Part shown: one piece after another, positions 1 to 19,423 of the stretch
Numbering within the stretch: position 1 is the stretch's first letter
Layout: each line of letters begins with the position of its first letter
The notes under the pieces: model-generated
Databases searched by the model: none
Seen by the model: the letters and a program-made list of their open reading frames with translations, nothing else
What the model was told of the DNA's origin: nothing
Translations under genes and position numbers: made by a program
Virus record (IMG/VR): IMGVR_UViG_3300045911_000239
Span: 1-20,117 of that record
Source: a virus
Length of the DNA stretch: 20,117 bases
Strand: one strand, 5' to 3'

Positions 1-271
1 CATCTCTATGACGTTTGCCATCCTTGTACCATTCCTGCCTACCATCTGCATGAATCATAGCAGGCTTGTCTCCATCTCTGTGAAGTTTGCCATCCTTGTA
101 CCAATACTGAGTACCATCTATACTAATCACAGCAGGTTCATCGCCATTTCTGTGGATTTCACCTCTAGCATTTTTAAAAATGAAATCACCAAAATTATCG
201 TCTAACTTAGACGATAACTTGTCATAATATTTTAATTTTTCAGGATTTGTATGTAGTTTGTATAAATTCAT
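1..271 (-). CDS. WYKDGK-repeat protein, copy 1 (partial, C-terminus outside window)
   Basis: This gene is read leftward and leaves the window before its stop, so about 90 residues are visible. It opens [19 protein letters not shown], the head shared by all copies here, followed by a [18 protein letters not shown] segment. It then has one full 24-residue repeat ([18 protein letters not shown]...) and the start of a second. The ATG (271-269) overlaps the TGA of the gene upstream in an ATGA, so translation is probably coupled to that gene. WYKxGKxHRxxxxPA repeats are known from phage and giant-virus proteins and look MORN-like (short beta-hairpin units), but no biochemical function is established that I can name. 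It is the fourth member of a tandem paralog array, and more copies may lie left of the window. Confidence 0.85.
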
Positions 272-822
272 TTGATTCGTCTTCCATCAACCCACCATTC
301 CTGTGTATCATTTGCCAAAATTACAGCAGGCTTGCCATGATCCCTGTGTCGTTTGTCGTCCTTGTACCAATACTGACTACCATCTTCCAAAGTCGCAGCA
401 GGCTTGTCTCCATATCTGTGAAGTTGGCCATCTTTATACCAATACTGACTACCATCTGCATAAATCGCGGCAGGCTTATCTCCATCTCTGTGAAGTTGGT
501 CATTCTTGTACCAAAACTGGCTACCATCTGCACTAATTACAGCAGGCTTGTCTCCATCTCTGTGAAGTTTGCCATCTTTATACCAATACTGACTACCATC
601 TGCATGAATCGCGGCAGGCTTGTCTCCATCTCTGTGAAGTTTGCCATCTTTATACCAATACTGACTACCATCTGCCAAAATTACAGCAGGCTTGTCTCCA
701 TCATTATGAATTCTACCTCTAGCATTTTTAAAAAACAAAGCACCATCATCATCTAACTTAAACGATAACTTGTCATAATATTTTAATTTTTCAGGATTTG
801 TATATAATTTATATAAATTCAT
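268..822 (-). CDS. WYKDGK-repeat protein, copy 2 (five full repeats)
   Basis: This is a 184-residue protein. After the conserved head (residues 1-30, [19 protein letters not shown]) and a half repeat ([11 protein letters not shown]), it has five 24-residue units of the form [YF][23 protein letters not shown]. It ends in the short cap [10 protein letters not shown]. Variation between units is mostly K/Q at the GK/GQ position and at H/S/Y/L before ADGSQ. The last unit is the most diverged ([16 protein letters not shown]). It has no signal peptide, membrane segment or cysteine-rich stretch. Start and stop both lie in 4-base ATGA overlaps with sister copies. The product is probably a soluble solenoid-like binding protein (inference); its role is unknown. 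Confidence 0.88.
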
Positions 823-1304
823 TTGATCCGTCTTCCATCAACCCACCATTGCTGAGCACCATTTGCCAAAATTACAGCAGGTTTGCTATGACCCCTGTGT
901 CGTTTACCATCCTTGTACCAAAACTGAGCACCATTTGCCAAAATTACAGCAGGCTTGTCTCCATCTCTGTGAATTTGGCCATCCTTGTACCAATACTGAC
1001 TACCATCTGGATGAATCACAGCAGGCTTGTCTCCATCTCTGTGAAGTTTACCATCCTTGTACCAATACTGGTCACCATTTGCCAAAATTATAGCAGGATT
1101 GTCCCCATCCCTGTGGAGATTGCCATCCTTGTACCACTCATGACTACCATCTACACTAATCACAGCAGGTTCATCGCCATTTCTGTGGATTTCACCTCTA
1201 GCATTTTTAAAAATGAAATTACCAGAATCATCATCTAACTTAGACGATAACTGATCATAATATTTTAGTTTTTCAGGATTTGTATGTAGTTTGTATAAAT
1301 TCAT
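819..1304 (-). CDS. WYKDGK-repeat protein, copy 3 (four full repeats)
   Basis: This 161-residue paralog has the same architecture: head [19 protein letters not shown], half repeat ([18 protein letters not shown]), four 24-residue units and the cap [10 protein letters not shown]. Its head region is closest to that of copy 1, while its last unit and cap are closest to copy 2. The ATG at 1304-1302 overlaps the TGA that would end copy 4 if its frame were intact. The AG-rich sequence before the start is the coding end of the previous copy (GGAAAACGAATCAA), a weak Shine-Dalgarno, so efficient translation probably relies on coupling. Function unknown. Confidence 0.88.
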   Translation of the reverse strand: MNLYKLHTNPEKLKYYDQLSSKLDDDSGNFIFKNARGEIHRNGDEPAVISVDGSHEWYKDGNLHRDGDNPAIILANGDQYWYKDGKLHRDGDKPAVIHPDGSQYWYKDGQIHRDGDKPAVILANGAQFWYKDGKRHRGHSKPAVILANGAQQWWVDGRRIK

Positions 1305-1568
1305 TTGATTCGTTTTCCATTAACCCAAAATTCTTCCCTACCATTTTCCCAAATCACAGAAAGTTTGTCTCCATCTCTGTGCTTTTTCGCCGCCCTTGTA
1401 CCAATACTGACTACCATCTGCATAAATCACAGCAAGCTTTTCACCGTCATTGTGGGTTTGACCTTTAGCGTTCCTAAAAATTAAAGAACCAGCACTATCT
1501 AATTTAGACGATAACCGATTATAATATTTTAATTTTTCATGATTTGTATATAGTTTATAAATGTTCAC
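1301..1568 (-). pseudogene. WYKDGK-repeat protein, copy 4, frameshifted, GTG start
   Basis: The intact frame starts at a GTG (1568-1566) where the sister copies use ATG and reads MNIYKLYTNHEKLKYYNRL, one half repeat and YWYKGGEK. It then falls out of the family frame and stops at 1338. Dropping one A from the A5 run (plus-strand T5, 1383-1387) restores HRDGDKLSVIWENGREEFWVNGKRIK-like sequence, which ends exactly at the TGA at 1301-1303 in the standard ATGA overlap with copy 3. The restored protein would have a single full repeat (about 88 residues). The exact restoration of cap and overlap shows a recent one-base insertion, a sequencing error or recoding. With no clear Shine-Dalgarno and a GTG start, decay is most likely. 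Confidence 0.75.
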
Positions 1569-1574
1569 TTACTA

Positions 1575-2306
1575 TTAATTTTTTAATTTAAACAAAATAT
1601 TTTTCAGATATCCTTCATAAAAATCATGCAATCTTGCTTGCAAAACTTTTTTTTGTTTACCATCAAGATACGATATGAAAGCTGCCTCTGGTAATTTGTA
1701 TATAATCTTTTGAAATTCTTTAAAAGATGAACCAACTTCATTTTTTATAACCATTTCTATAGCATTTTCGATAGATGTTATTTTACTATGTAAACCGGTA
1801 TTGCTTTTTTCTTTTTTCAATTCTTCAACTTGTTTATATAAGTCTCCCAGTGAATTCTTAAAAGCCAATATTAAGTTGTCATATTTTTCATTGAAAGATG
1901 CAGGATCATTTACGATTTTTTGTTTTTCGTGAGATGTCAATTCATCTTCCGAAACATCTTCAAAGGAGTGGTGGTGAATAATATATTGTTTTAATTTTTC
2001 TACTAATCTATTAAAATTTTTTTTGTTAGTTATAATGTGATGTATATTTTCTCTTTTTAGTTCTTCATCTGTTGATATTTGAATTAAATTTTCATTTGTA
2101 TCTTCGGTAGGAGAGTTAGTAATTTTAATTACTAAATTTTTGAACCTGCTATCTTTAATTAGTTGTCCTACGTTAAAACTGATATGATCATCTTCTCTTT
2201 CAACATGGCTATTATCTATCATGTCGTGGATTTTATGAGCTATAAGAATTGCTTGGTGGTCAATGGCATCTAAATTTTCTACTAGTAAAAATTGTTTGAA
2301 TCTCAT
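1575..2306 (-). CDS. Putative capsid-targeted internal protein, unknown function
   Basis: This is a 243-residue protein with no family I recognise. It starts MRFKQFLLVENLDAIDHQA. The first ten residues resemble the T4 capsid-targeting sequence of internal proteins (IPIII begins MKTYQEFIAE) and end in L-V-E, which fits the L/I-x-E motif after which the gp21 prohead protease cuts. The remainder is charged and mostly helical-looking, with lysine/glutamate-rich segments around residues 75-130 and a probable coiled coil around 150-190. It has no membrane segments. It is the first gene of the minus-strand operon, preceded by a late-promoter octamer (AATAAATA, 2333-2326) and a short AGG-type ribosome site. 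Packaging in the head is inference from the N-terminus. It could instead be an ordinary late protein with a chance match. Confidence 0.6.
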   Translation of the reverse strand: MRFKQFLLVENLDAIDHQAILIAHKIHDMIDNSHVEREDDHISFNVGQLIKDSRFKNLVIKITNSPTEDTNENLIQISTDEELKRENIHHIITNKKNFNRLVEKLKQYIIHHHSFEDVSEDELTSHEKQKIVNDPASFNEKYDNLILAFKNSLGDLYKQVEELKKEKSNTGLHSKITSIENAIEMVIKNEVGSSFKEFQKIIYKLPEAAFISYLDGKQKKVLQARLHDFYEGYLKNILFKLKN

Positions 2307-2325: not shown

Positions 2326-2333
2326 TATTTATT
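2326..2333 (-). promoter_or_regulatory. Late promoter octamer AATAAATA for the minus operon
   Basis: AATAAATA read on the minus strand lies 19 nt before the ATG of the putative internal protein and matches seven of eight bases of the T4 late octamer TATAAATA. With the usual T4 geometry the transcript would start about 6 nt further on, leaving a short leader with an AGG just before the ATG. It is divergent from the tail-tube promoter only about 35 bp away. Confidence 0.6.
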
Positions 2334-2368: not shown

Positions 2369-2376
2369 TATAAATA
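2369..2376 (+). promoter_or_regulatory. Late promoter TATAAATA for the tail tube gene
   Basis: This is a perfect T4 late octamer. The expected start near 2382 gives a leader of about 19 nt containing AGGAG (2389-2393), 7 nt before the ATG. This is a strong ribosome binding site for a high-copy structural protein. Confidence 0.8.
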
Positions 2377-2400: not shown

Positions 2401-3003
2401 ATGGCATTAATTACAGACTTTGGTGTAACACCTAGCGATGCAGGTATTTTACACCCTAAGCAAAGAAATAAGTGGAAAGTCACATTCATTGGGGTCGGCG
2501 GTGGCCGAGGCACCGGGGGCGGGGGTTTGAATGCACAAGGTCTCACCGTCCAAGCAGTTACAACCGATAGACCACAATTAGAATTCGATCAAGTACAATT
2601 GGATCGTTATAACTCAAGAGCTTGGGTGGCTGGTAAACACTCATGGCAACCACTCAATATGACATTTGAAGATGATATTGGCGGTGAAGTTACGCAGATT
2701 ATTCAAGAGCAGTTAGAAAAGCAACAAGCGTTAATAGCTCCGGGTTCAGGTAGAGTTTTGAATACTGCGCGTGCTGGTCAGGATTATAAGTTTGCAATAA
2801 GACTAGATATGCTCGATGGTGATATCGGAGTGATTGAATCTTGGGCTATTGAAGGTTGCTTCTTGGCGAATGTTAACTATGGTGATCTTGATTATAGCAC
2901 CGGGGAAGCTGTAAAGATCAGCTTGACTGTAAGATATGATCATGCAAGACAATTGAATCTTGGTGTTGCTGGAAACGCAACTGGCGGCCCCGCTGGATTT
3001 TAA
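2401..3003 (+). CDS. 19: Tail tube protein, gp19-like
   Basis: This 200-residue protein matches the long form of gp19 seen in marine T4-like phages (T4 gp19 itself is about 163 residues). Recognisable elements are the TTDRPQLEFDQVQLDRYNSR segment, the AGKHSWQPLNMTFEDDIGG strand pair, the YKFAIRLDMLDGD segment and the C-terminal WAIEGCFLANVNYGDLDYS...VKISLTVRYDHA block. These are typical of the phage tail-tube/T6SS Hcp fold. It would polymerise as hexameric rings to form the rigid inner tail tube. A glycine-rich loop (GVGGGRGTGGGG, about residues 31-42) is encoded by unusually GC-rich DNA. Start is supported by AGGAG and a perfect late promoter, and a strong terminator follows, so it can be transcribed alone at high level. 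Confidence 0.9.
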   Translation: MALITDFGVTPSDAGILHPKQRNKWKVTFIGVGGGRGTGGGGLNAQGLTVQAVTTDRPQLEFDQVQLDRYNSRAWVAGKHSWQPLNMTFEDDIGGEVTQIIQEQLEKQQALIAPGSGRVLNTARAGQDYKFAIRLDMLDGDIGVIESWAIEGCFLANVNYGDLDYSTGEAVKISLTVRYDHARQLNLGVAGNATGGPAGF

Positions 3004-3066: not shown

Positions 3067-3609
3067 ATGAACAAACAAGTATTAAACAAATTACAAGAAT
3101 TATTTTTTAATTCTTCTGAAGAAGAATTTAATAATTATTTAAACTCTTTAAGAAATCCTAATATTTTAATACAACCAACAACTTTTTTAAAACCACAAGA
3201 ATTAACATTTTTATCACCTGAAAGATATAATCTTTATATTATAGATCAGGGTGATGGCCCAATAGGAAAAGGTCTTTCCAGTTTAGAAGTAGTGAGTTCT
3301 GAGTTAGTAGGAATTAATAGAAATAGTTTAGCTTTTTTTGATAAAACAACAAAATTGAATGTAAATCAAATTAGAAACTCAACTAATACACAATTACAAG
3401 AAATTATAATTAATGAAATCAGTATGACGGAACACTTTTTATATGGTTTAGAAAATGGAAGCCCGCAGGTTGTGGATTTTTTAAAAAATGTAAATAATAT
3501 TATGAAGGTTTTAAAGGTTGGTCGTTTTAAGAAAAGCAATTTTATAACTCCTACCTTAGACATAAGCAAGAAACTTATAAAATTTAATATAAGTAAGGCA
3601 GGTGTATAA
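3067..3609 (+). CDS. Hypothetical late (probably virion) protein
   Basis: This is a 180-residue protein without a family I recognise. It starts MNKQVLNKLQELFFNSSEEE, with two amphipathic helices likely in the first 30 residues. A mixed region follows (LSPERYNLYIIDQGDGPIGK, about 50-70), and the C-terminal third is lysine-rich (KVLKVGRFKKSN, KKLIKFNISK). It has no signal peptide or membrane segment. It lies between two tail-tube-fold genes, has its own late promoter, and overlaps the next gene by one base (TAATG). A tail or baseplate role is therefore likely by context only. The start is fixed by the promoter just upstream, although no ribosome site is visible. Confidence 0.7.
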   Translation: MNKQVLNKLQELFFNSSEEEFNNYLNSLRNPNILIQPTTFLKPQELTFLSPERYNLYIIDQGDGPIGKGLSSLEVVSSELVGINRNSLAFFDKTTKLNVNQIRNSTNTQLQEIIINEISMTEHFLYGLENGSPQVVDFLKNVNNIMKVLKVGRFKKSNFITPTLDISKKLIKFNISKAGV

Positions 3610-4262
3610 TGGCACAGTATTGGATGTTAAATAAAACTAATCTAGTTCCTAATGTTGGCGTCCCGAATGTAGCGATTCCTGACAACATGGTATCTACTGA
3701 AATTCCAAAATTGAAGTTCAATTTTACTGTTCAATTTTTTCCGAGAATTAATATATTTCCAGAGTTAGGCAATTTAGATGCAGAATATATGATGTTTCAA
3801 TTAAAATCCGCTACCAGACCATCTCCTCAAGTCAATTTAGAAGACGTAAATTTTTATAACTATAGATCAAAAATTGCAACAAGTGTAAAATATGGCAGTG
3901 TAACAATATCATTCTATGACGATCCTTTAAATAGAGCACATAATTTATTTAAAAAATATTTCGAACTGATAAGCCCAATAACATCTAGAACAAGAGAGCA
4001 AACGGATTCTCTAGATAGACAGGGATTTTCTGGAGCAGCTTCTATAGGAAGTTTACCAGATAACGCCAGAAATGGCATTTTCAGGGCCTTGGCGGTAGGG
4101 CAACAATATCAAGTTGCAGGGAAATATAAAGAAACAATATATAACTATTTGAATCCAAAAATTGAACAGGTAGATTTACAAGAATTAGATATGTCAATGT
4201 CAGAGCCATGTATAGTCAGTTTAACATTTTCATATGACGGGGTGAATATTATAGAAAGGTAA
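3609..4262 (+). CDS. Tail-tube-fold structural protein (gp19/gp54-like)
   Basis: This 217-residue protein begins MAQYWMLNKTNLVPNVGVPN. It carries features of tube-type proteins: a KSATRPSPQVNLEDVNFYNY segment, a KYGSVTISFYDDPLNRA strand pair followed by a helix (HNLFKKYFELISPI), and a C-terminal strand pair (EPCIVSLTFSYDGVNII). It is not gp19, which is already present upstream. A tube-initiator or baseplate tube role like that of T4 gp54 or gp48 is the best guess, though those proteins are longer (about 320-364 residues). The start codon overlaps the previous stop (TAATG) and head completion gp4 follows after 2 nt. Its assignment as a virion protein is fairly secure; the exact role is inference. 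Confidence 0.6.
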   Translation: MAQYWMLNKTNLVPNVGVPNVAIPDNMVSTEIPKLKFNFTVQFFPRINIFPELGNLDAEYMMFQLKSATRPSPQVNLEDVNFYNYRSKIATSVKYGSVTISFYDDPLNRAHNLFKKYFELISPITSRTREQTDSLDRQGFSGAASIGSLPDNARNGIFRALAVGQQYQVAGKYKETIYNYLNPKIEQVDLQELDMSMSEPCIVSLTFSYDGVNIIER

Positions 4263-4725: not shown

Positions 4726-4746
4726 ATGAAAAGGATTAACAAATGA
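4726..4746 (+). other. Possible six-codon leader cistron (MKRINK)
   Basis: ATG at 4726 is followed by AAA AGG ATT AAC AAA TGA. The TGA overlaps the ATG of the large coiled-coil gene (ATGA at 4743-4746). The AAGGA ribosome site of the large gene lies inside this mini-frame. It may be chance, but its start sits at the predicted +1/+2 of the late promoter. Confidence 0.3.
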
Positions 4747-6173
4747 AACATTTGAAAGAAACTGATGGTGGATTTATTGGTGCTAGCGACATCGCAGCAA
4801 ATCTTGATAGAGTACAAGGTATGCGTAGACGTGAAATGCGCTCAAGTGTCGCCGATTGGCGCTCTTCAGTTGCGCATGACAAACAATCTAAAATCGCAAC
4901 AGAACCTGAACATGTAATACGAGCTAGAAAAAATCTAGAAATTCTGAAGCAGAAGAAACGCGAACAAGCTAGGATGAATAGTCCAAAAGAAAGATTTAAG
5001 TCGTTTATTGCTAGAACTGCAACTTCTGCAAAGGATGCAGTTAAAAAACGCTTTCAAATTTCAGAAGCATTTAACATGCAAGACGTTGTTTCTAGATTGA
5101 AAGGTTTTGAAAATAAGAGCTACGAAGACACCGTAACTTATGGTGTTGAAGATGATGATGGCAACATAATGAAAGTTACCGTGAGAGCTGAACAAGCTAA
5201 AAAGTTTGAGCAAAGAATGGCTGAAGAACTGGCAGTTATAAAAACTTTCGTTGACGGTTTAAGTTTGAATGGGGAAGATAAAAATACAAATAGAGATGCT
5301 GGTAAATCTATAGCAGAATTGCTATATAATTTAAAAAACGAATTTGATATTGTAGATGTGGAATTTCCTGAAATACCATCAGATGTAATTTATAATACTG
5401 ATAAAGCTACATATAATGCCCAAGATAGTATTGAATCTAGTGACCTTGAAACAGATGAAGAAATGTCAGATCAAGGTGTAGAAGATTTTAAAGATGAAGA
5501 TTCTGCTCTTCCGGGAGAAGAATCAGAGGAAGTCAACTCAGATGACCTCGATTCTGCTGAAAACTTTGAAGAACCTTCAACTGCACCTTCAACCGATAGT
5601 GATATAATACAATCAGTTTTAAGCATGTTAAAAGCAGAGGCAGAAGCCCGAAAGGCTGGATATGAAAAAGAGGCTGAAGAATATAGAGCTAGACAAGCAG
5701 AATACACGTATAAACTTGCAACTCATACTGCCAGCCAACAGGAAGAAATGGCTCAAATAGAAGCAGAAATGGAACGACAAAAAGAAAAAGAAAAAGAAGC
5801 TAAAAAATATGCAGATATTGCAAAGTTTAGAGTTCAGAAAATGAAATCAACCAACGAGTCTGTTGTAGATAAAATTTTTGAAGTCGAAAGTCTTGAAAGT
5901 GTCGCAAGTCTGATGAGAATGAAGCAAGCTCTAAGAAGTCAGTTTGCTGTTTCACCGACCGACACCCCACAAGATAAAGCATTTAAGATGGCATCCTTTA
6001 GGGATGCTTCGGCTGAATTAGACATGAGAATTAGACGTGCTAGACGTAGTGAGCAATTTAATTCTTTAAAGGCTAAAAAAGAACAACAAGAAGCTTTGAA
6101 GAATAAAAGACAACAAGATATGTTGGATAAGAAGCAACAACCACAGCCAGCTCAAAATCAAAAAATGGAATAA
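4743..6173 (+). CDS. Large acidic coiled-coil protein, probable virion or core component
   Basis: This 476-residue protein is in no family I can name. Residues 1-105 are strongly basic (GMRRREMRSSVADWRSSVA, ILKQKKREQARMNSPKERFK). An I-S-E|A-F motif at about 106-110 resembles an L/I-x-E prohead protease site. Residues about 220-285 are very acidic and low in complexity (DLETDEEMSDQGVEDF, GEESEEVNSDDLDSAE). Residues about 295-365 are a long charged coiled coil (EAEARKAGYEKEAEEYRARQ, MERQKEKEKEAKK). The tail is K/Q-rich. A basic head, acidic centre and coiled coil would suit a scaffold, core or internal head protein next to gp4, but this is inference. It has its own late promoter and AAGGA ribosome site (spacing 7). 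Confidence 0.7.
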   Translation: MKHLKETDGGFIGASDIAANLDRVQGMRRREMRSSVADWRSSVAHDKQSKIATEPEHVIRARKNLEILKQKKREQARMNSPKERFKSFIARTATSAKDAVKKRFQISEAFNMQDVVSRLKGFENKSYEDTVTYGVEDDDGNIMKVTVRAEQAKKFEQRMAEELAVIKTFVDGLSLNGEDKNTNRDAGKSIAELLYNLKNEFDIVDVEFPEIPSDVIYNTDKATYNAQDSIESSDLETDEEMSDQGVEDFKDEDSALPGEESEEVNSDDLDSAENFEEPSTAPSTDSDIIQSVLSMLKAEAEARKAGYEKEAEEYRARQAEYTYKLATHTASQQEEMAQIEAEMERQKEKEKEAKKYADIAKFRVQKMKSTNESVVDKIFEVESLESVASLMRMKQALRSQFAVSPTDTPQDKAFKMASFRDASAELDMRIRRARRSEQFNSLKAKKEQQEALKNKRQQDMLDKKQQPQPAQNQKME

Positions 6174-6175
6174 TA

Positions 6176-6499
6176 ATGCACATCTATGAAGTTTTATATG
6201 ATTGTGAACCTTGTAATATAGGACAAATCGATGAAGCAGCACCTAGAGTAACTAGGCAGATGCGTAGATACGGAAATACTTTAAAGATGCAATTTAGATG
6301 TAACTTTGGAGATAAAAAAGGTAGATTAGTTTCTAATCCTTCAAAATGTGGGATAAAGAAAAATCCATTAAAAGTTAGGGCTGGGGTAAAATCATCCAGA
6401 ATAAAAAAACTAATAAGAATTAGGAAATCTAAATTTACAAAATCAAAAGCCGCATCTAAGCGTTTGGTTAGAATAAACAATTGGTTAGGTAGAAAATGA
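6176..6499 (+). CDS. Small very basic protein, possible head-associated DNA-binding protein
   Basis: This 107-residue protein begins with a short neutral to acidic stretch ending QIDEAAPRV, where I-D-E|A (18-21) fits the T4-type prohead protease motif. The rest is extremely basic (RQMRRYGNTLKMQFRC, KKGRLVSNPSKCGIKKNP, KKLIRIRKSKFTKSKAASKR). The RC..GDKKGRLVSNPSKCG segment resembles a small family I recall from marine T4-like phages, whose members share a C-x-KKGR-V-x-C pattern. Four cysteines (10, 13 and the two flanking GDKKGR) might bind a metal. It follows the coiled-coil gene by 2 nt and overlaps the next by ATGA. A packaged DNA-binding role is inference from charge and motif. Confidence 0.65.
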   Translation: MHIYEVLYDCEPCNIGQIDEAAPRVTRQMRRYGNTLKMQFRCNFGDKKGRLVSNPSKCGIKKNPLKVRAGVKSSRIKKLIRIRKSKFTKSKAASKRLVRINNWLGRK

Positions 6500-6921
6500 A
6501 ATTTAACTCTTTATCTGAACTCTTAGAGTTTGTAAATAATTCAGAATTTGATACATCAGAATATGATTTTTATATCAATAAAAAAGAAAATAATCAATGT
6601 GCAGAGAATGTTCGTAAAATCTCAAATTTTAAAAGGGTCGAATTAGATTTTCCTTCTGGTAAAAAAGAATATAATGCAACTTTAGGTGATAAAAACGTTT
6701 TATATGTTGAAAGTTTTGAATCTATCCCAAATCTATGTGGGAGCGGTAGTTTTATTTTTGATGGTAGAAAAATAAATTGTAATATTTGTGAGTTTGAAAA
6801 TAATACTAAAGTCAGCTTAGACGTTACGGTAGACGGTGTATCACAAAATAAAGAGTTTTATCTTGCCTATATACATGAAAGGATAGATGAAAACTTAATT
6901 ACTTTGAAAAATGAAAATTAA
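6496..6921 (+). CDS. Hypothetical protein
   Basis: This 141-residue protein has no family I recognise. It starts MKFNSLSELLEFVNNSEFDT, a likely short helix, followed by what looks like a mainly beta domain (KRVELDFPSGKKEYNATLG, NVLYVESFESIPNLCG). It is acidic and has four cysteines, one in CAEN and three close together (NLCGSG, INCNICEF, about residues 75-97). The ATG overlaps the previous stop (ATGA) with a TAGGT 6 nt before it, and its end overlaps the next gene by 11 nt, so it belongs to the same operon. No signal peptide or membrane segment. Confidence 0.7.
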   Translation: MKFNSLSELLEFVNNSEFDTSEYDFYINKKENNQCAENVRKISNFKRVELDFPSGKKEYNATLGDKNVLYVESFESIPNLCGSGSFIFDGRKINCNICEFENNTKVSLDVTVDGVSQNKEFYLAYIHERIDENLITLKNEN

Positions 6922-7525
6922 AAGCCCGTTTTTTGTTATTGAAAATTTTATAGAACCTTTAACATGCGAAGATATAATTTCTAGATTGGATCACACTGTA
7001 CCAAACTATAATTCATCTGGAAAGCCAGAAAAAACTATAAAGTTTAACAGGCTTACAGAAATAAGGTTATTACCTTCTTTAGAAATGATAATTCCAGATT
7101 TGGAAACATATTATGGCTATCAACATAAAGGTCTTACCGGCTTCACTTTTGAATGGTATCCGCAGGGATTTCAAGGTGATAGACCTCGTTGTGAAAATAG
7201 TGAATATATTGATAAGAGATGGACTAGAGTAAACAACAACGATTTTTGTGGTTTGATCATATTAAATGAATATAATGATAAACCTCCATTTGACCCATAT
7301 TTTGAAGTTAATGGAGGAAAAATCAATTTTCCAAATCATAAGTTTTCTTTTAATCCAAAACGTGGTACGCTAATTGTTTTCCCCGGAAATGAAAACTTTT
7401 TAAATTTTGTAGGGCAAGTCAAAAACGGAGATTTGAATTTGATTAGATATCATATTACGGCTGAGAAACCGTATAGGTACGATATCAAAAACTTCCCCGG
7501 AGACTATAAAAGCTGGTTTAGCTAA
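6911..7525 (+). CDS. 2OG-Fe(II) oxygenase-like protein, metal ligands apparently lost
   Basis: This 204-residue protein aligns by eye with the prolyl-hydroxylase-like 2OG oxygenases of T4-like phages. Landmarks are the FFVIENFIEPLTCEDI opening, NSEYIDKRWTRV, FCGLIILNEYNDKPPFDPYF, EVNGGKINFPNHKFSFNP, KRGTLIVFPG and the IRYHITAEKP end with a putative 2OG-binding R179. In the family as I recall it, the iron is held by a His-x-Asp before NSEY and a His in PSGPHFIN. Here these positions read R93-C-E95 and N162 (NENFLNF), and no HxD or HxE occurs anywhere in the protein. Enzyme activity is thus doubtful; it may be a structural or ligand-binding derivative. The neighbour downstream is the lysin, whose translation may depend on this gene being translated. 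Confidence 0.7.
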   Translation: MKIKSPFFVIENFIEPLTCEDIISRLDHTVPNYNSSGKPEKTIKFNRLTEIRLLPSLEMIIPDLETYYGYQHKGLTGFTFEWYPQGFQGDRPRCENSEYIDKRWTRVNNNDFCGLIILNEYNDKPPFDPYFEVNGGKINFPNHKFSFNPKRGTLIVFPGNENFLNFVGQVKNGDLNLIRYHITAEKPYRYDIKNFPGDYKSWFS

Positions 7526-12045: not shown

Positions 12046-12993
12046 ATGAAAAAGTTTTTGATTATTGATGCTAGTAACATCATTCATAGAGTATTCAGAG
12101 CGCACATTAAGGATAAGGAAGATATTTTATTAGGGATGTGCATCCATTCTTTTATGCACGTATTAAGTAAATATTACTACTCTCATCATCCAGACGATAT
12201 TGTAGTAGCTTTTGACTCAGAAAAAAGTTCATGGAGAAAAAAATATACTCTTTCCAAAGAAGCTAAAACTTATAAACAATATAAAGGTAATAGAAGGAAA
12301 AACTTAACTGAGTCAGAACTTAAAAAATACGAGGCTTTAGATAAATTAATTTTAGATATAAAAAATATTTTGAAAACACAGACTTCTCTGCTAGTTATAG
12401 AAGGTGAAGAACTGGAAGCTGACGATATGATTGCAGGATTTGTCCAATTACAAGAAGATCATAAATGTATTATTGTGTCGGCAGATAATGATTTTATTCA
12501 ATTAATGCGTAATCCAAATGTAACTCTTATAAATCCTATAGATGACAAACCTATGAGTTTGAAGGAATGGGATTTTAACGCAGATTATTTTATGTTTGAA
12601 AAGTGCATAAGAGGTGACGCCGGAGACAATGTTATGTCTTCTTACCCGAGACTTAGAAGTAATAAAATAAAAGAAGCTTTCTATGATGAATTTAAAAAAC
12701 AAAACATCATGAATCATGAATTTTTGGTGGAATATCTAGACGATGATGGAAAATTAATCTCAAAAAAATATAAAACTTCTATAATATTTGAAGAAAATCA
12801 ATTACTTATGAATTTACAAATGCAGCCAAAATATATTAAGAAAAAAATATATGAGTCGATCTATACATGTATGGAGAAACGAGGCACCTTTTCTATATTC
12901 AAATTCTTGAAGTTCTGCGGAAAATATGATTTGAAAAGCGTTGGAAAAAACATCAATAAGTTTATTCCAGTTCTAGCCATCAAGACTCATTAG
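12046..12993 (+). CDS. rnh: RNase H / 5'-3' exonuclease (T4 Rnh, FEN-like)
   Basis: This 315-residue protein is the length of T4 RNase H (305). Metal-binding acidic residues of the 5' nuclease family stand in order: IIDASN (D8), VVAFDSE (D57), EGEELEADD (E124, D126, D127), SADNDF (D147, D149) and RGDAGDNV (D191, D194). WRKKYTLSKEAKTYKQYKG fits the basic arch region that threads the 5' end. In T4 it removes RNA primers and short DNA flaps from lagging-strand fragments together with clamp and gp32. It starts 1 nt after the previous stop, and its last 14 nt overlap the tail of the opposite-strand gene. Confidence 0.92.
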   Translation: MKKFLIIDASNIIHRVFRAHIKDKEDILLGMCIHSFMHVLSKYYYSHHPDDIVVAFDSEKSSWRKKYTLSKEAKTYKQYKGNRRKNLTESELKKYEALDKLILDIKNILKTQTSLLVIEGEELEADDMIAGFVQLQEDHKCIIVSADNDFIQLMRNPNVTLINPIDDKPMSLKEWDFNADYFMFEKCIRGDAGDNVMSSYPRLRSNKIKEAFYDEFKKQNIMNHEFLVEYLDDDGKLISKKYKTSIIFEENQLLMNLQMQPKYIKKKIYESIYTCMEKRGTFSIFKFLKFCGKYDLKSVGKNINKFIPVLAIKTH

Positions 12994-13345
12994 TTGGTGG
13001 TTTCCAGTCATTCCATTTTCTACCAGTAGAGGTGTACAAACCGAATATACCAGCAGATAGGCCAATTATAGTAGTAACAAAGGCCGATTGTGCTGCAGTT
13101 GGTCCACCAACTACATCTGTGGTAGTACATGCAATTGAAGCGGCCTTACCGAGTTCTACTCCTTGCTTCAACAATACTTCGATTGTATTTGCATCACAAG
13201 ACTGTTTGATGTACGTAGGTATATTTTTGTACCATAAATACAATTCGACTACTAGCCAAGAATATCCAATAAGGATTAATCTAGGAACTACACGCCATGC
13301 ATCAAATGCTTCTGCTAATAGTAAAGATGTTCTTCTTAAGTTCAT
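12980..13345 (-). CDS. Small two-helix membrane protein (possible holin-like)
   Basis: This 121-residue protein opens MNLRRTSLLLAEAFDAWRVV. Two hydrophobic segments are visible, about 20-41 (VPRLILIGYSWLVVELYLWY) and about 87-107 (AFVTTIIGLSAGIFGLY). They are separated by a loop with two cysteines (QSCDAN, SIACTT), and the end is basic to polar (TGRKWNDWKPPTNES). Similar small membrane proteins occur in marine T4-like phages, as I recall, without a proven function. Size, topology and a late promoter would suit a holin or other lysis protein; this is inference. The TATAAATA octamer ends 6 nt before its ATG, and no Shine-Dalgarno is seen. It is the only minus gene between plus-strand neighbours. 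Confidence 0.72.
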   Translation of the reverse strand: MNLRRTSLLLAEAFDAWRVVPRLILIGYSWLVVELYLWYKNIPTYIKQSCDANTIEVLLKQGVELGKAASIACTTTDVVGGPTAAQSAFVTTIIGLSAGIFGLYTSTGRKWNDWKPPTNES

Positions 13346-15112: not shown

Positions 15113-16471
15113 ATGAATACAATATTTGTTCAGATAGCAAGTTATCGTGACCCTCAATTGATACCAACTCTTAATGATATGTTACAGAATGCCGATCATC
15201 CTGAAAATTTACACATAGGAATATGTTGGCAACATGGAGATGATGAGCCTACCGATATCTTTTTAGATAATGAAATAACTATATTAGATTTTTATGAAAA
15301 ATCTGGATTTAATGTTTTAAAGGCAGAAAAGAAAGGTGCAAAATTTTCTATAATTGATGTCCATTATCATAAGACTAATGGTGCTTGCTGGGCAAGAAAT
15401 GCAATACAACAATTATATGCAAAAGAAAAGTATACTTTGCAGTTAGACTCACACCATAGATTTGCAAAGGGATGGGACACCACACTCATAAACATGTTAG
15501 AGGGATTAAGAACTCAAAGTGAGAAACCTTTACTTACTGCATATGTACCATCATTTGATCCTGATAATGACCCGCAAGGTAGAGTTATGCAGCCTTGGCA
15601 AATGAATTTTGATAGATTTATACCAGAAGGTGCAGTGTTTTTTATACCGTCTGAAATACCAAACTGGAGACAATTAAATGGGCCGATACGTGCAAGGTTC
15701 TATTCGGCACATTTTTGCTTCGCTGACGGTTCTTTCGCTGAAGAAGTACAACATGATCCTGAATATTTCTTTCATGGAGAAGAAATTTCAATATCAGCTA
15801 GAGCATTTACACACGGATACGATTTATATCATCCACATATACCTATAGTTTGGCACGAATATACTAGAAAGGGTAGAACTAAAGTTTGGGATGACCACAC
15901 CGAAGCACAAAAAAATAAAGGTAGAATTAATTTACATTGGTTAGAAAGAAATAACATATGCCATAGAAGAAATAGAATATTATTTGGTATGGATGGAGAA
16001 GACCAAAATAGTATAGATTTTGGAAAATATGGTTTTGGTAGTAAAAGAACTCTTAAAGAATATGAAGAATACGCTGGTATAAGTTTTAAATATAGAGGTG
16101 TTCAACAAAAAACTTTGGATAAAATTGATCCAGTTTGGCCTTTACAAACCTCTTATGCAAGTGAAGAAGATTGGAAGAATACTCTAGTTGGCTCCCATGA
16201 TATAAGAATATGCTTCCACAAGAGTGAGTTGGGTGAGTTAGTAAATGATTTTGATTTCTGGTATGTAGGCGCACATAATGCGGAAGGAAAAGAAATTTTT
16301 AGAAAAGATTTAACACAACCAGACATCAATAATTATTTACAAAATGATTTTATTGATTATAGATTTATATTTTTATCAAATGAGAAACCGGCTACATACA
16401 CAATTTGGACACATAGTACTAGTAAGGGCTGGATGTTCAAATTGGATAAACCTGTCCCGCCACATGGATGA
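15113..16471 (+). CDS. GlcNAc-type glycosyltransferase (GT60-like)
   Basis: This 452-residue protein has an N-terminal domain (about 1-285) that fits the Glycosyltransferase (GlcNAc) family related to Skp1 GlcNAc-transferase. Landmarks are IFVQIASYRDPQLIPTL, HIGICWQHGDDEP, NGACWARNAIQQLY, LQLDSHHRFAKGWD (D112-x-H, the DxD-like metal site) and FFHGEEISISARAFTHGYDL. These enzymes are GT-A-fold transferases using sugar nucleotides. The last 120 residues or so are a separate, unrecognised, mostly beta domain (IRICFHKSELGELVNDFDFW onward). AAGGA 7 nt before the ATG and the late promoter mark it as first gene of the cassette. The acceptor may be LPS, a capsid or tail protein, or DNA; sequence does not say. 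Confidence 0.85.
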   Translation: MNTIFVQIASYRDPQLIPTLNDMLQNADHPENLHIGICWQHGDDEPTDIFLDNEITILDFYEKSGFNVLKAEKKGAKFSIIDVHYHKTNGACWARNAIQQLYAKEKYTLQLDSHHRFAKGWDTTLINMLEGLRTQSEKPLLTAYVPSFDPDNDPQGRVMQPWQMNFDRFIPEGAVFFIPSEIPNWRQLNGPIRARFYSAHFCFADGSFAEEVQHDPEYFFHGEEISISARAFTHGYDLYHPHIPIVWHEYTRKGRTKVWDDHTEAQKNKGRINLHWLERNNICHRRNRILFGMDGEDQNSIDFGKYGFGSKRTLKEYEEYAGISFKYRGVQQKTLDKIDPVWPLQTSYASEEDWKNTLVGSHDIRICFHKSELGELVNDFDFWYVGAHNAEGKEIFRKDLTQPDINNYLQNDFIDYRFIFLSNEKPATYTIWTHSTSKGWMFKLDKPVPPHG

Positions 16472-17118
16472 AAATATCTAAAAAAACCATTGAGAAGTGG
16501 GTACCATATTCAGAGTATAATGTAAAAAATTTGGTGCTATACACTTTACAAATTTTGCCACAAACCCAAGTTACCATTATGGATATTGGTAGCAATATCG
16601 GGAGCTTTGTTAAGTGTATTAATGATAAAATTACAGTTAGAGATGCAGTATTGATTGAACCTATAAGAGAGTTGTTGCATTTTTCAAAAACATATACAAA
16701 TCCTAATTTTAAATTTGAACAAGTTGCCTTATCTAATTATAATAAAACTGTTGATTTTTATATCTCTAATACTTGGAATCTTGGAGTGAATAAAATTTTA
16801 GATAATACTAATGTTTCAACAAGAAAAATAAAAGTTGAAAAATTCAATGACAATCTTGCAATTAAATATAAAGATTTTCATCCAACTATAATAAAGATAG
16901 ATGTTGAAGGGGAAGAATTTAAGGTGCTTGAACATACACTAGAGTACATTAAAACCCGAAATCTTAGACCTCTTATAATCATAGAAGTTATCAAAAGTCA
17001 ATGCCAAGATGATATTAAAAATTTCTATGCTTCACTTGGCGATGGCTATAAAATAGTAGATAAATACGCAAGTGATTCTTGCGACCTATTTTTTGTCCCA
17101 AAGGAATATAATGTTTAA
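16468..17118 (+). CDS. FkbM-family methyltransferase
   Basis: This 216-residue SAM-dependent methyltransferase has motif I IMDIGSNIGSFVKCI (D39), motif II AVLIEPIRELL, the FEQVALSNYNKTVDFY block and IKIDVEGEEFKVLEH (D145, E147), all characteristic of FkbM. FkbM enzymes mostly O-methylate hydroxyls of sugars or polyketides, so it would methylate the sugar product of this cassette. The start overlaps the glycosyltransferase stop by ATGA, with no Shine-Dalgarno of its own, so translation is coupled. Its end overlaps the carbamoyltransferase by 8 nt. Confidence 0.88.
   Translation: MKISKKTIEKWVPYSEYNVKNLVLYTLQILPQTQVTIMDIGSNIGSFVKCINDKITVRDAVLIEPIRELLHFSKTYTNPNFKFEQVALSNYNKTVDFYISNTWNLGVNKILDNTNVSTRKIKVEKFNDNLAIKYKDFHPTIIKIDVEGEEFKVLEHTLEYIKTRNLRPLIIIEVIKSQCQDDIKNFYASLGDGYKIVDKYASDSCDLFFVPKEYNV
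17059..17066 (+). promoter_or_regulatory. Candidate internal late promoter GATAAATA
   Basis: Inside the FkbM coding sequence, 44 nt before the carbamoyltransferase ATG at 17111. It matches the NATAAATA form used elsewhere here. It may simply be coding sequence. Confidence 0.35.
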
Positions 17119-19423
17119 TATAAAAGATGAAGACAAATTAATCATTTCCATATACGGCTCTCACAATGCATCTGTTGTAATGTATTATAAGGGAGAATAT
17201 ACTGTCGTAGAAGTTGAAAGATGGTTAAATTTAAAAAATGCAGGCTTAACCTTGTATTATCCATGCCAACAACCACAAATAGTATTTGATGAAATAATAA
17301 ATTATTTGTTAAATAAATCTGGTAGAACACACGTTGATGTTTTATTATTAAACTATGCAGATTATTTAGATTTTAAATTTGTATACAAAGAGAAGATTGG
17401 ATTCGATCATCATACTGCTCATGCTGCAACGGCATTTTATCAATCACCATATGAAGAAATGTTAGTATTTACATATGATGGTGGTGGCAATGGTGGCTAT
17501 TTTAATGTATATACTGCATCAAGACGAGATGGTATTAAATTAATCAATAATTTAGATTATGATCTAGGTTATCCTTATATGCTTTTGGCTGATCATTTAG
17601 AAGATATAAGAAAAGAACCTTTAAATATTGGTAATTTAGTATATGCTGGAAAATTAATGGGCCTTTGCTCTTATGGTAAAGTTAGAGAAGACTGGTTGCC
17701 ACATTTTGAAAATTATTACCAGAAATTTAAATACACCGGCGATGCATTCTTCGGTGGTAATGAAATCCGCCCACAAGCATTAAAACAACTATTTGAAAAA
17801 ATAAATTTAGAATTTGATTTAAACACAACACGCTTTTCAGGTCAAATAGCATGGGATATTGCTGCAACTACTCAAAGAGCATTTGAAAATGAATTTCTAA
17901 GGCACGCACAGCCGTATATCGACAAGTTTCCAGACCTTCCTATCGGATTAGCTGGTGGATGCGCATTAAACGTTCTATTAAATAAGCGAATATTAGATAA
18001 CAAAAAGGATAAAAAAGTTTTTGTTCCGCCGAACACTAATGACTGCGGTATAGCTGCGGGTGGTGTTTTGTGGTATTTAAAACCTCAAAAACAAGTGGAT
18101 TTGACTTATTCCGGCTTGCCGATTTTAGATGCAGATAATTTAGGTTATCTTATTAACAAATATTATTTGGAAGTTTTCGAAAATGTAACTTTAGATGAGC
18201 TAGCAATTTATTTAAACGATGGACATATCGTTGGAATTATCCAAGGAAATTCTGAACATGGGAGTAGAGCTTTAGGTAATCGAAGTATTTTATGTGATCC
18301 TCGTAGTGGGATGAAAGATATTTTAAATAATAAAGTAAAAAAGAGAGAATGGTATAGGCCATTCGCGCCTATGGTCAGATTGGAGGATGCACCAACATAC
18401 TTTGATATTCCAGAAGGCGTAGAATCTCGCCACATGGTTTTTGTTGCAAATGTTAGAGATGAGTGGGCCGATAGACTGGCATCTGTAAGACATGAAGATG
18501 GAACTGGAAGATTGCAAACAATTACAAAAACTCAGAATCCATTAATATATGATCTTCTTGGAAAATTCGGAAACTTATCTGGACACAGCGTTTTGCTTAA
18601 TACTTCGTTTAATATAAACGGAAAACCTATTTTAACAAGATTAGATGACGCCTTTAAACTTCTGAAAGAATCAGATTTGGACGCTGTGTATTACGATGGG
18701 AAGATGTTCTTCAAGCACAACACTTCCAAGAATTTTTCAATTATACGAAAAAATAAAATAACATCAAAGATAAACAAAGATACAACATCTGTTTTATATT
18801 ATTTTAACACAGAAGTTCCAGATAATATCATAAAGACTGCTGAAAAATATATAAAAAATATAAGCAAGAAAATAGTTTTCATGATTAACCATGAGATTTA
18901 TGATAAATTTAAAAAGTATGAATCTGAAAATGTAAAAGTGCATCTAGTTACAGAAGGTAGAAAGTATTTCATGAGTCAAATTTACAACCGTGAAGTTAAC
19001 TTAACTAAGATGAGTGAATTAATAAAGTGTCTATGGTTCAAAGAACTTATAAGAGAAAATGTTTTTAATAATCAAAACCATATCTTTATAAACTTAGATT
19101 CTAACAATATAAAACTAAAGCATATTTTTAAAGCACTAGAAGCTGACACGCATACGACTGTTTATGCGACAGGGTATTTAAGAAAGGAAGAAAACAGAGT
19201 CTATGGTGAGGATTTCTTAAAAAAGAGATACAATAAAAAACCAGAATATTCTATGAACTTAGATATTTTGTATGGAGATAATGACGATTTGATTATTATA
19301 TCGAATCTGTATGAAGCATATTTGATTGGAGGTTTCCAAGAAGGGAAAATTGGTGTAGAAGCAGATTATCTAGACTTCCCGATGTTAGAAAATGAAAAGA
19401 TTAAAATACATAGAGTTGATTGA
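17111..19423 (+). CDS. Carbamoyltransferase fused to a glycosyltransferase-like domain
   Basis: This is a 770-residue protein. Residues 1-535 are a NodU/CmcH/TobZ-type O-carbamoyltransferase. The N-terminal Kae1-like part has FDHHTAHAATAFYQSPYEEM (H100, H101, H104) and VFTYDGGGNGGYF. The C-terminal part has GNSEHGSRALGNRSILCDPR, NNKVKKREWYRPFAPMV and LLNTSFNINGKPI. Such enzymes move carbamoyl from carbamoyl phosphate through carbamoyl-AMP to a sugar hydroxyl. Residues about 540-770 are extra. ELIKCLWFKELIRENVFNNQ then HIFINLDSN resembles the YNPLVFSKQFML...FNTKYYLWIDAG part of the next gene, so it is perhaps a diverged HtrL/YibB-like domain. I chose ATG 17111 (AAGGA 6 nt before) over ATG 17072, which lies within FkbM and has no ribosome site. 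Confidence 0.88.
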   Translation: MFNIKDEDKLIISIYGSHNASVVMYYKGEYTVVEVERWLNLKNAGLTLYYPCQQPQIVFDEIINYLLNKSGRTHVDVLLLNYADYLDFKFVYKEKIGFDHHTAHAATAFYQSPYEEMLVFTYDGGGNGGYFNVYTASRRDGIKLINNLDYDLGYPYMLLADHLEDIRKEPLNIGNLVYAGKLMGLCSYGKVREDWLPHFENYYQKFKYTGDAFFGGNEIRPQALKQLFEKINLEFDLNTTRFSGQIAWDIAATTQRAFENEFLRHAQPYIDKFPDLPIGLAGGCALNVLLNKRILDNKKDKKVFVPPNTNDCGIAAGGVLWYLKPQKQVDLTYSGLPILDADNLGYLINKYYLEVFENVTLDELAIYLNDGHIVGIIQGNSEHGSRALGNRSILCDPRSGMKDILNNKVKKREWYRPFAPMVRLEDAPTYFDIPEGVESRHMVFVANVRDEWADRLASVRHEDGTGRLQTITKTQNPLIYDLLGKFGNLSGHSVLLNTSFNINGKPILTRLDDAFKLLKESDLDAVYYDGKMFFKHNTSKNFSIIRKNKITSKINKDTTSVLYYFNTEVPDNIIKTAEKYIKNISKKIVFMINHEIYDKFKKYESENVKVHLVTEGRKYFMSQIYNREVNLTKMSELIKCLWFKELIRENVFNNQNHIFINLDSNNIKLKHIFKALEADTHTTVYATGYLRKEENRVYGEDFLKKRYNKKPEYSMNLDILYGDNDDLIIISNLYEAYLIGGFQEGKIGVEADYLDFPMLENEKIKIHRVD

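Follow-up and report, generated by a model that had tools for sequence, protein, structure and literature searches.

The internal proteins (IPs) of phage T4 are not strongly conserved, and in IPIII, which begins MKTYQEFIAE, genetic work assigns targeting to residues 4 and 7 and processing to residues 8 and 10 (PMC9026906). In SPN3US, a phiKZ-type jumbo phage, the propeptides of the ejection proteins are mostly long (>100 residues), in contrast to such 10-residue tags (PMC5694885). The stretch of DNA analyzed here (the window) is a complete virus record of 20,117 bases and contains, on the minus strand at positions 1575 to 2306, an ATG-initiated ORF of 243 amino acids, designated P0001. Its translation begins MRFKQFLLVENLDAID, the N-terminus being MRFKQFLLVE followed by N. 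On the basis of the ORF, its translation and its family members, P0001 is proposed to be a capsid-targeted internal head protein.

The window comes from a jumbo myophage whose relatives include Xanthomonas phage XacN1 and Stenotrophomonas phage RAS14, a grouping based on the tail tube protein (2401 to 3003, plus strand; phrog_4542, E value of 3e-46), the gp4-type head closure protein (phrog_218) and gene order. The window also has a run of sugar-modifying genes at 15113 to 19423, including a GlcNAc-type glycosyltransferase (PF11397), a carbamoyltransferase (PF02543/PF16861) and, judged by eye, an FkbM-like methyltransferase. Unlike its neighbors, P0001 belonged to no named family in PHROG, Pfam or NCBIfam. 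A single-sequence search of viral contigs with P0001 found no homologue, but alignments and synteny did recover homologues in Stenotrophomonas phages RAS14 and CM1, in XacN1 (ORF352) and in six IMG/VR contigs. The aligned family comprised nine members: the window, RAS14, XacN1, L005, L009, L010, L011, L134 and L136.

In every clade member seen (9/9, the window included), the P0001 gene adjoined the tail tube gene in divergent orientation. The homologues were 22 to 33% identical to the window protein, compared with 47 to 61% for the adjacent tail tube, and this difference at a single fixed site indicates a gene that is fixed in position and fast diverging, as expected from the description of internal proteins as fast evolving in the sequence-only reading. 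That reading also placed P0001 at the head of a repeat operon. Within the window this was borne out, as P0001 is followed on its strand by ORFs containing a 72-bp repeat, the first about 6 nt away; in RAS14, XacN1 and L009, however, other genes occupy that place. The window region 1 to 1568 (minus strand) holds several ORFs with this 24-residue (72-bp) repeat and a common N-terminus, of which the copy at 1338 to 1568 has a frame shift and an early end, as decay of the copy or an error in sequencing would produce. The ORF immediately after the L009 homologue (6471 to 7160, minus strand) has a kinase-like HADN...DPF pattern by eye. Contig L013 (and also L012/L151), which lacks P0001, carries just downstream of the tail tube a DSP-type phosphatase gene (3143 to 3739) whose product starts MTMNLTFKEYLQEE and matches Pfam PTP-NADK (E value of 6e-9) and the Tc-R-P polymorphic-toxin phosphatase (E value of 1.5e-7).

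Alignment of the nine family members revealed the tag M-x(1-2)-F-x-x-[F/Y/H]-[L/I]-x(1-2)-E in all of them, its part from F to E lying within residues 3 to 11. The best conserved column of the N-terminal region was F3 (mean BLOSUM score of 6.0), with F6 and L7 each scoring 3.4. The tag as a whole averaged 2.0, compared with -0.1 for the next seven residues (11 to 17), where indels occurred, and 2.2 for the domain starting at residue 18; a conserved end peptide, a variable linker and a conserved domain together form the pattern expected of a detachable signal. The conserved tag columns are the counterparts of T4 IPIII residues 4 and 7 (targeting) and 8 and 10 (cleavage). The spacing of the T4 IPs was exact in XacN1, RAS14, L009, L010 and L011 (5/9) and one residue longer in the window, L005, L134 and L136 (4/9), the last two also having H in place of F/Y together with L-Y-E. 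The ORF and N-terminus were as the sequence-only reading had quoted them, with a tag that is above chance and kept in 9/9 members at 22 to 33% identity. Its likening of the layout to the T4 capsid-targeting sequence held for the aromatic, aliphatic and glutamate pattern but not for the spacing, since the window tag has an extra residue between F6-L7 and L8-V9-E10. Conservation, enrichment and low pLDDT mark codons 1 to 10 (2277 to 2306, minus strand) as the proposed capsid-targeting sequence, with a predicted cut after E10.

T4 gp23 contains FLTE65/A, its cleavage site (slashes here and below mark known or proposed cuts). In the complete relatives, the gp21 protease of T4 has a homologue (E value of 6e-12); no gp21-type protease was found in the 20-kb window fragment. 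Alignment of the major capsid proteins of five relatives to T4 gp23 placed the putative ends of their propeptides at LAE/T in XacN1, LLE/T in RAS14 and relative G001, LVE/N in PA5oct and LME/N in Atu_ph07. P0001 reads LVE/N, resembling these alignment-derived LxE/T or LxE/N capsid sites. Upstream of all nine family members, at 19 to 29 nt, lies [G/A]ATAAATA, a T4-late-promoter-like element, which in the window is AATAAATA (2326 to 2333, minus strand), 19 nt before the P0001 start. A divergent late-promoter-like element, TATAAATA (2369 to 2376, plus strand), precedes the tail tube gene by 24 nt (start at 2401), with counterparts 24 to 44 nt upstream in all relatives.

The occurrence of the tag on other proteins was analyzed in the eight P0001-bearing records. 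A loose motif, tried first, gave a weak enrichment (30/5028 starts against 30/9372 internal Met, p 0.011). A stricter motif, which was defined after this first look and is in that sense tuned, was then tested against shuffled sequences and interiors. Of 1860 ORFs, 22 carried it within their first 22 residues; shuffled N-termini gave 3.3 +/- 1.8 (p <= 5e-4), and the expectation based on interior 22-mers was 5.0, the gene calls in relatives being mechanical and the homologous genes counted being non-independent. By homology cluster, 12 were tagged against 3.3 expected (maximum of 9 in 300 shuffles), and the P0001 family was the sole large cluster tagged in all members (8/8); several of the 12, such as the portal and a HAD-like cluster, are likely to be chance hits. 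The strict tag was found on 12 of 162 genes with a late-promoter-like element and on 8 of 1698 others (p 9e-9). With the P0001 family left out, the strict tag stood at 4/154 against 8/1698 (p 0.013), and a broader tag at 19/154 against 85/1698 (p 6e-4). Run on T4 as a positive control, these scans picked up ipII, ipIII, gp22, gp24 and Alt, plus some false positives. T4 gp68 was dropped as support for the motif, the peptide MLLEFKQFLYE sitting within uvsW. Motif enrichment at N-termini was not found in PA5oct or Atu_ph07; PA5oct gp257 (MTNKTFKRFLSTE) carries an annotation as an ESI-MS/MS virion protein.

Among the tagged proteins is an acidic, coiled-coil, core-like protein encoded beside the gp4 gene, with N-termini MSFKTFLQE/TAAGG in G001 and MGFKNFLQE/NASAG in G007. 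Its window orthologue (4743 to 6173, plus strand; phmmer family of seven, E values of 2e-52 to 1e-69), for which no PHROG or Pfam name was found, has the short N-terminus MKHLKE/TDGG. The decapeptide was also to be sought on other proteins of the same genome: the 20-kb fragment yielded only weaker LxE/AE N-termini, those of the core-like protein and of a small membrane-like protein (12980 to 13345, minus strand; phrog_10198), whereas the longer relatives contained several clear cases. The membrane-like protein, with the N-terminus RRTSLLLAE/AFDAWR, has orthologues in five relatives that keep the AE, has TATAAATA upstream and is a second, weaker candidate for such processing. In XacN1 and RAS14, ORF299, a small ORF flanked by the portal and protease genes, has the N-termini VSKFSEYLAE and SKSFREHLAE, respectively, and ORF314 (XacN1 190362 to 191417, RAS14 138721 to 139761) has an N-terminal FxxFLxE tag. 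The syntenic ORF314 orthologue in G001 (178398 to 179378; locus L059; hmmsearch E value of 2e-5) instead carries the tag at its extreme C-terminus, ending SLSFKQFLIEKIDK. Two HExxH proteins, XacN1 ORF117 (53927 to 54784, with a duplicate at 372722 in the terminal repeat; MKTSFRQFLAE) and its RAS14 counterpart at 281509 to 282357 (MTQSFKQFLIE), match "virion structural protein" families of PHROG at an E value of about 1e-7. Since hhalign was unconvincing (E value of 0.037, probability of 1%), paralogy between the P0001 family and these proteins is not claimed.

Two further genes were observed during these comparisons. The small, very basic protein encoded after the core-like gene in the window (6176 to 6499; orthologues in G002/G003) contains GQIDE/AAPRVTRQ where relatives have FLEE/SPRITRQ. 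In G001, a late-promoter gene at 226054 to 226869 encodes the N-terminus MKINSLLESLLAE; the resemblance of its YHATSKSNLRSILKSG...GVYLT to an ADP-ribosyltransferase was by eye only, had no Pfam match and was set aside.

The AlphaFold2 model of P0001 (mean pLDDT of 81.7, pTM of 0.48) was least confident at residues 1 to 10 (pLDDT below 50), with a helix predicted at 2 to 7, and confidently showed a two-part domain after residue 10. Codons 11 to 243 (1578 to 2276, minus strand) would thus encode the mature protein, composed of an alpha/beta part (14 to 112) and a helical part (125 to 242). No fold match was found in the PDB, and Pfam, PDB and coiled-coil matches to proteins of the nucleoporin, syntaxin and EIF4E-T type were rejected as chance effects of low complexity or coiled coils. 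The BFVD structure matches were both viral: A0A7D0KZ52 (E value of 1.4e-12) and A0A248SK74 (250 amino acids; E value of 2.1e-4), the latter probably being Salicola phage SCTP-2 gp462 (ASV44477). A profile search picked out SCTP-2 gp462 independently (E value of 3.9e-6); it was homologous to P0001 over about 220 columns (hhalign E value of 1.3e-6), and it too has a short N-terminus, MKLEQLFE/DP, with AATAAATA just upstream. Unlike P0001, its gene lies away from the tail tube and its product contains KLFVHELTHLYDQDR...TPAEYNAYY, which by eye resembles the HExxH...E pattern of zincins (HELTH). The zincin HExxH with its third ligand was absent from 9/9 P0001 family members and the pattern in SCTP-2 gp462 had no Pfam support, so the hint that the P0001 family may be of pseudo-peptidase origin is treated as a lead only. 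For mature P0001, a binding or structural (pseudo-enzyme) role appears more likely than catalysis.

Taken together, the conserved tag, the N-terminal enrichment, the capsid-like LxE/T or LxE/N site and the late-promoter-like element make P0001 a probable capsid-targeted, protease-trimmed internal head protein. Capsid targeting, as the sequence-only reading had it, is backed by a family-wide tag, by its sharing with late and head-core-like proteins, by the likeness to capsid sites and by the promoter-like element. The invariable divergent linkage to the tail tube gene would also suit a factor that helps to assemble the tail or neck, such as a chaperone for the tail tube, and the helix predicted at residues 2 to 7 could then be an ordinary amphipathic helix. 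We regard this as unlikely, as such a helix requires neither the glutamate column nor the LxE pattern, residues 1 to 10 have the lowest model confidence and are followed by a variable linker, and unrelated proteins carry this N-terminal pattern as well, one orthologue having it at the C-terminus. The motif is short and random matches do occur (five per 1860 ORFs by the interior expectation), so the likeness might be coincidental or inherited and P0001 a non-virion late protein; the better conservation of the tag than of the linker in diverged homologues, its N-terminal enrichment and its association with late-promoter-like elements make this very unlikely.

The further claim, that P0001 is injected to counter defense or to take over the host in the manner of T4 IPI or Alt, would draw on the same tag evidence as packaging does, on the faster divergence of P0001 relative to the tail tube, and on the phosphatase gene beside the tail tube, with a similar N-terminus, in two contigs without P0001. 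Against it, no likeness to IPI or to counter-defense proteins was found in Pfam, PHROGs, NCBIfam, PDB sequences and folds or PADLOC (which covers defense systems rather than counter-defense), and the family is without a catalytic signature. Nor was a patchy, polymorphic distribution found: the tail-tube-adjacent site is occupied in all clade members seen, unlike the polymorphic IPs, and this fixed, syntenic distribution disfavors an IPI-like polymorphic factor. The claim thus gained no positive evidence, and we consider the anti-defense role rather unlikely.

As a capsid-targeted internal protein, P0001 would be a late component of the prohead core of an XacN1-type jumbo myophage. F3 and F6 may dock it on the core in the way that IPIII tag residues 4 and 7 do, and the gp21-type protease would cut after E10 (LVE/N) once the shell has assembled. 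Residues 11 to 243 would stay in the head alongside the DNA and would probably be delivered into the next host. More tentatively, the XacN1-type jumbo phages may possess a modular capsid-addressing system in which a short tag at either protein end loads the head with varied cargo for delivery (P0001, ORF314, the HExxH proteins and, in related contigs, the DSP-type phosphatase), P0001 being the conserved pseudo-peptidase of the payload. Should the capsid-targeting reading of P0001 be right, the T4-type head-loading tag would extend to a jumbo phage clade, and the tag combined with a late promoter would provide a sequence rule for predicting virion-internal proteins among many unnamed ones. It would also yield a small set of payload proteins open to testing and make XacN1 and RAS14 usable for testing the C-terminal version of the tag.

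Compared with the known systems, P0001 shares with T4 IPII, IPIII and IPI an aromatic-x-x-aromatic and aliphatic-x-E arrangement within the first 9 to 11 residues, a variable mature part and, with its late-promoter-like element, putatively late expression, apart from the extra residue before the glutamate in the window protein. The T4 IPs are small basic proteins with a patchy distribution, whereas P0001 has 243 residues and is a fixed gene of its clade; packaging has been demonstrated for the T4 proteins only, to which P0001 is likened from its sequence. T4 Alt (MMELITELFDE) resembles P0001, with its late-promoter-like element and proposed propeptide, in its late promoter, its short, acidic-ended N-terminal propeptide and its larger size, but Alt is an ADP-ribosyltransferase and P0001 has no recognized enzyme domain. 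The ejection proteins of SPN3US are, as proposed for P0001, packaged in the head and trimmed by a gp21-related protease.
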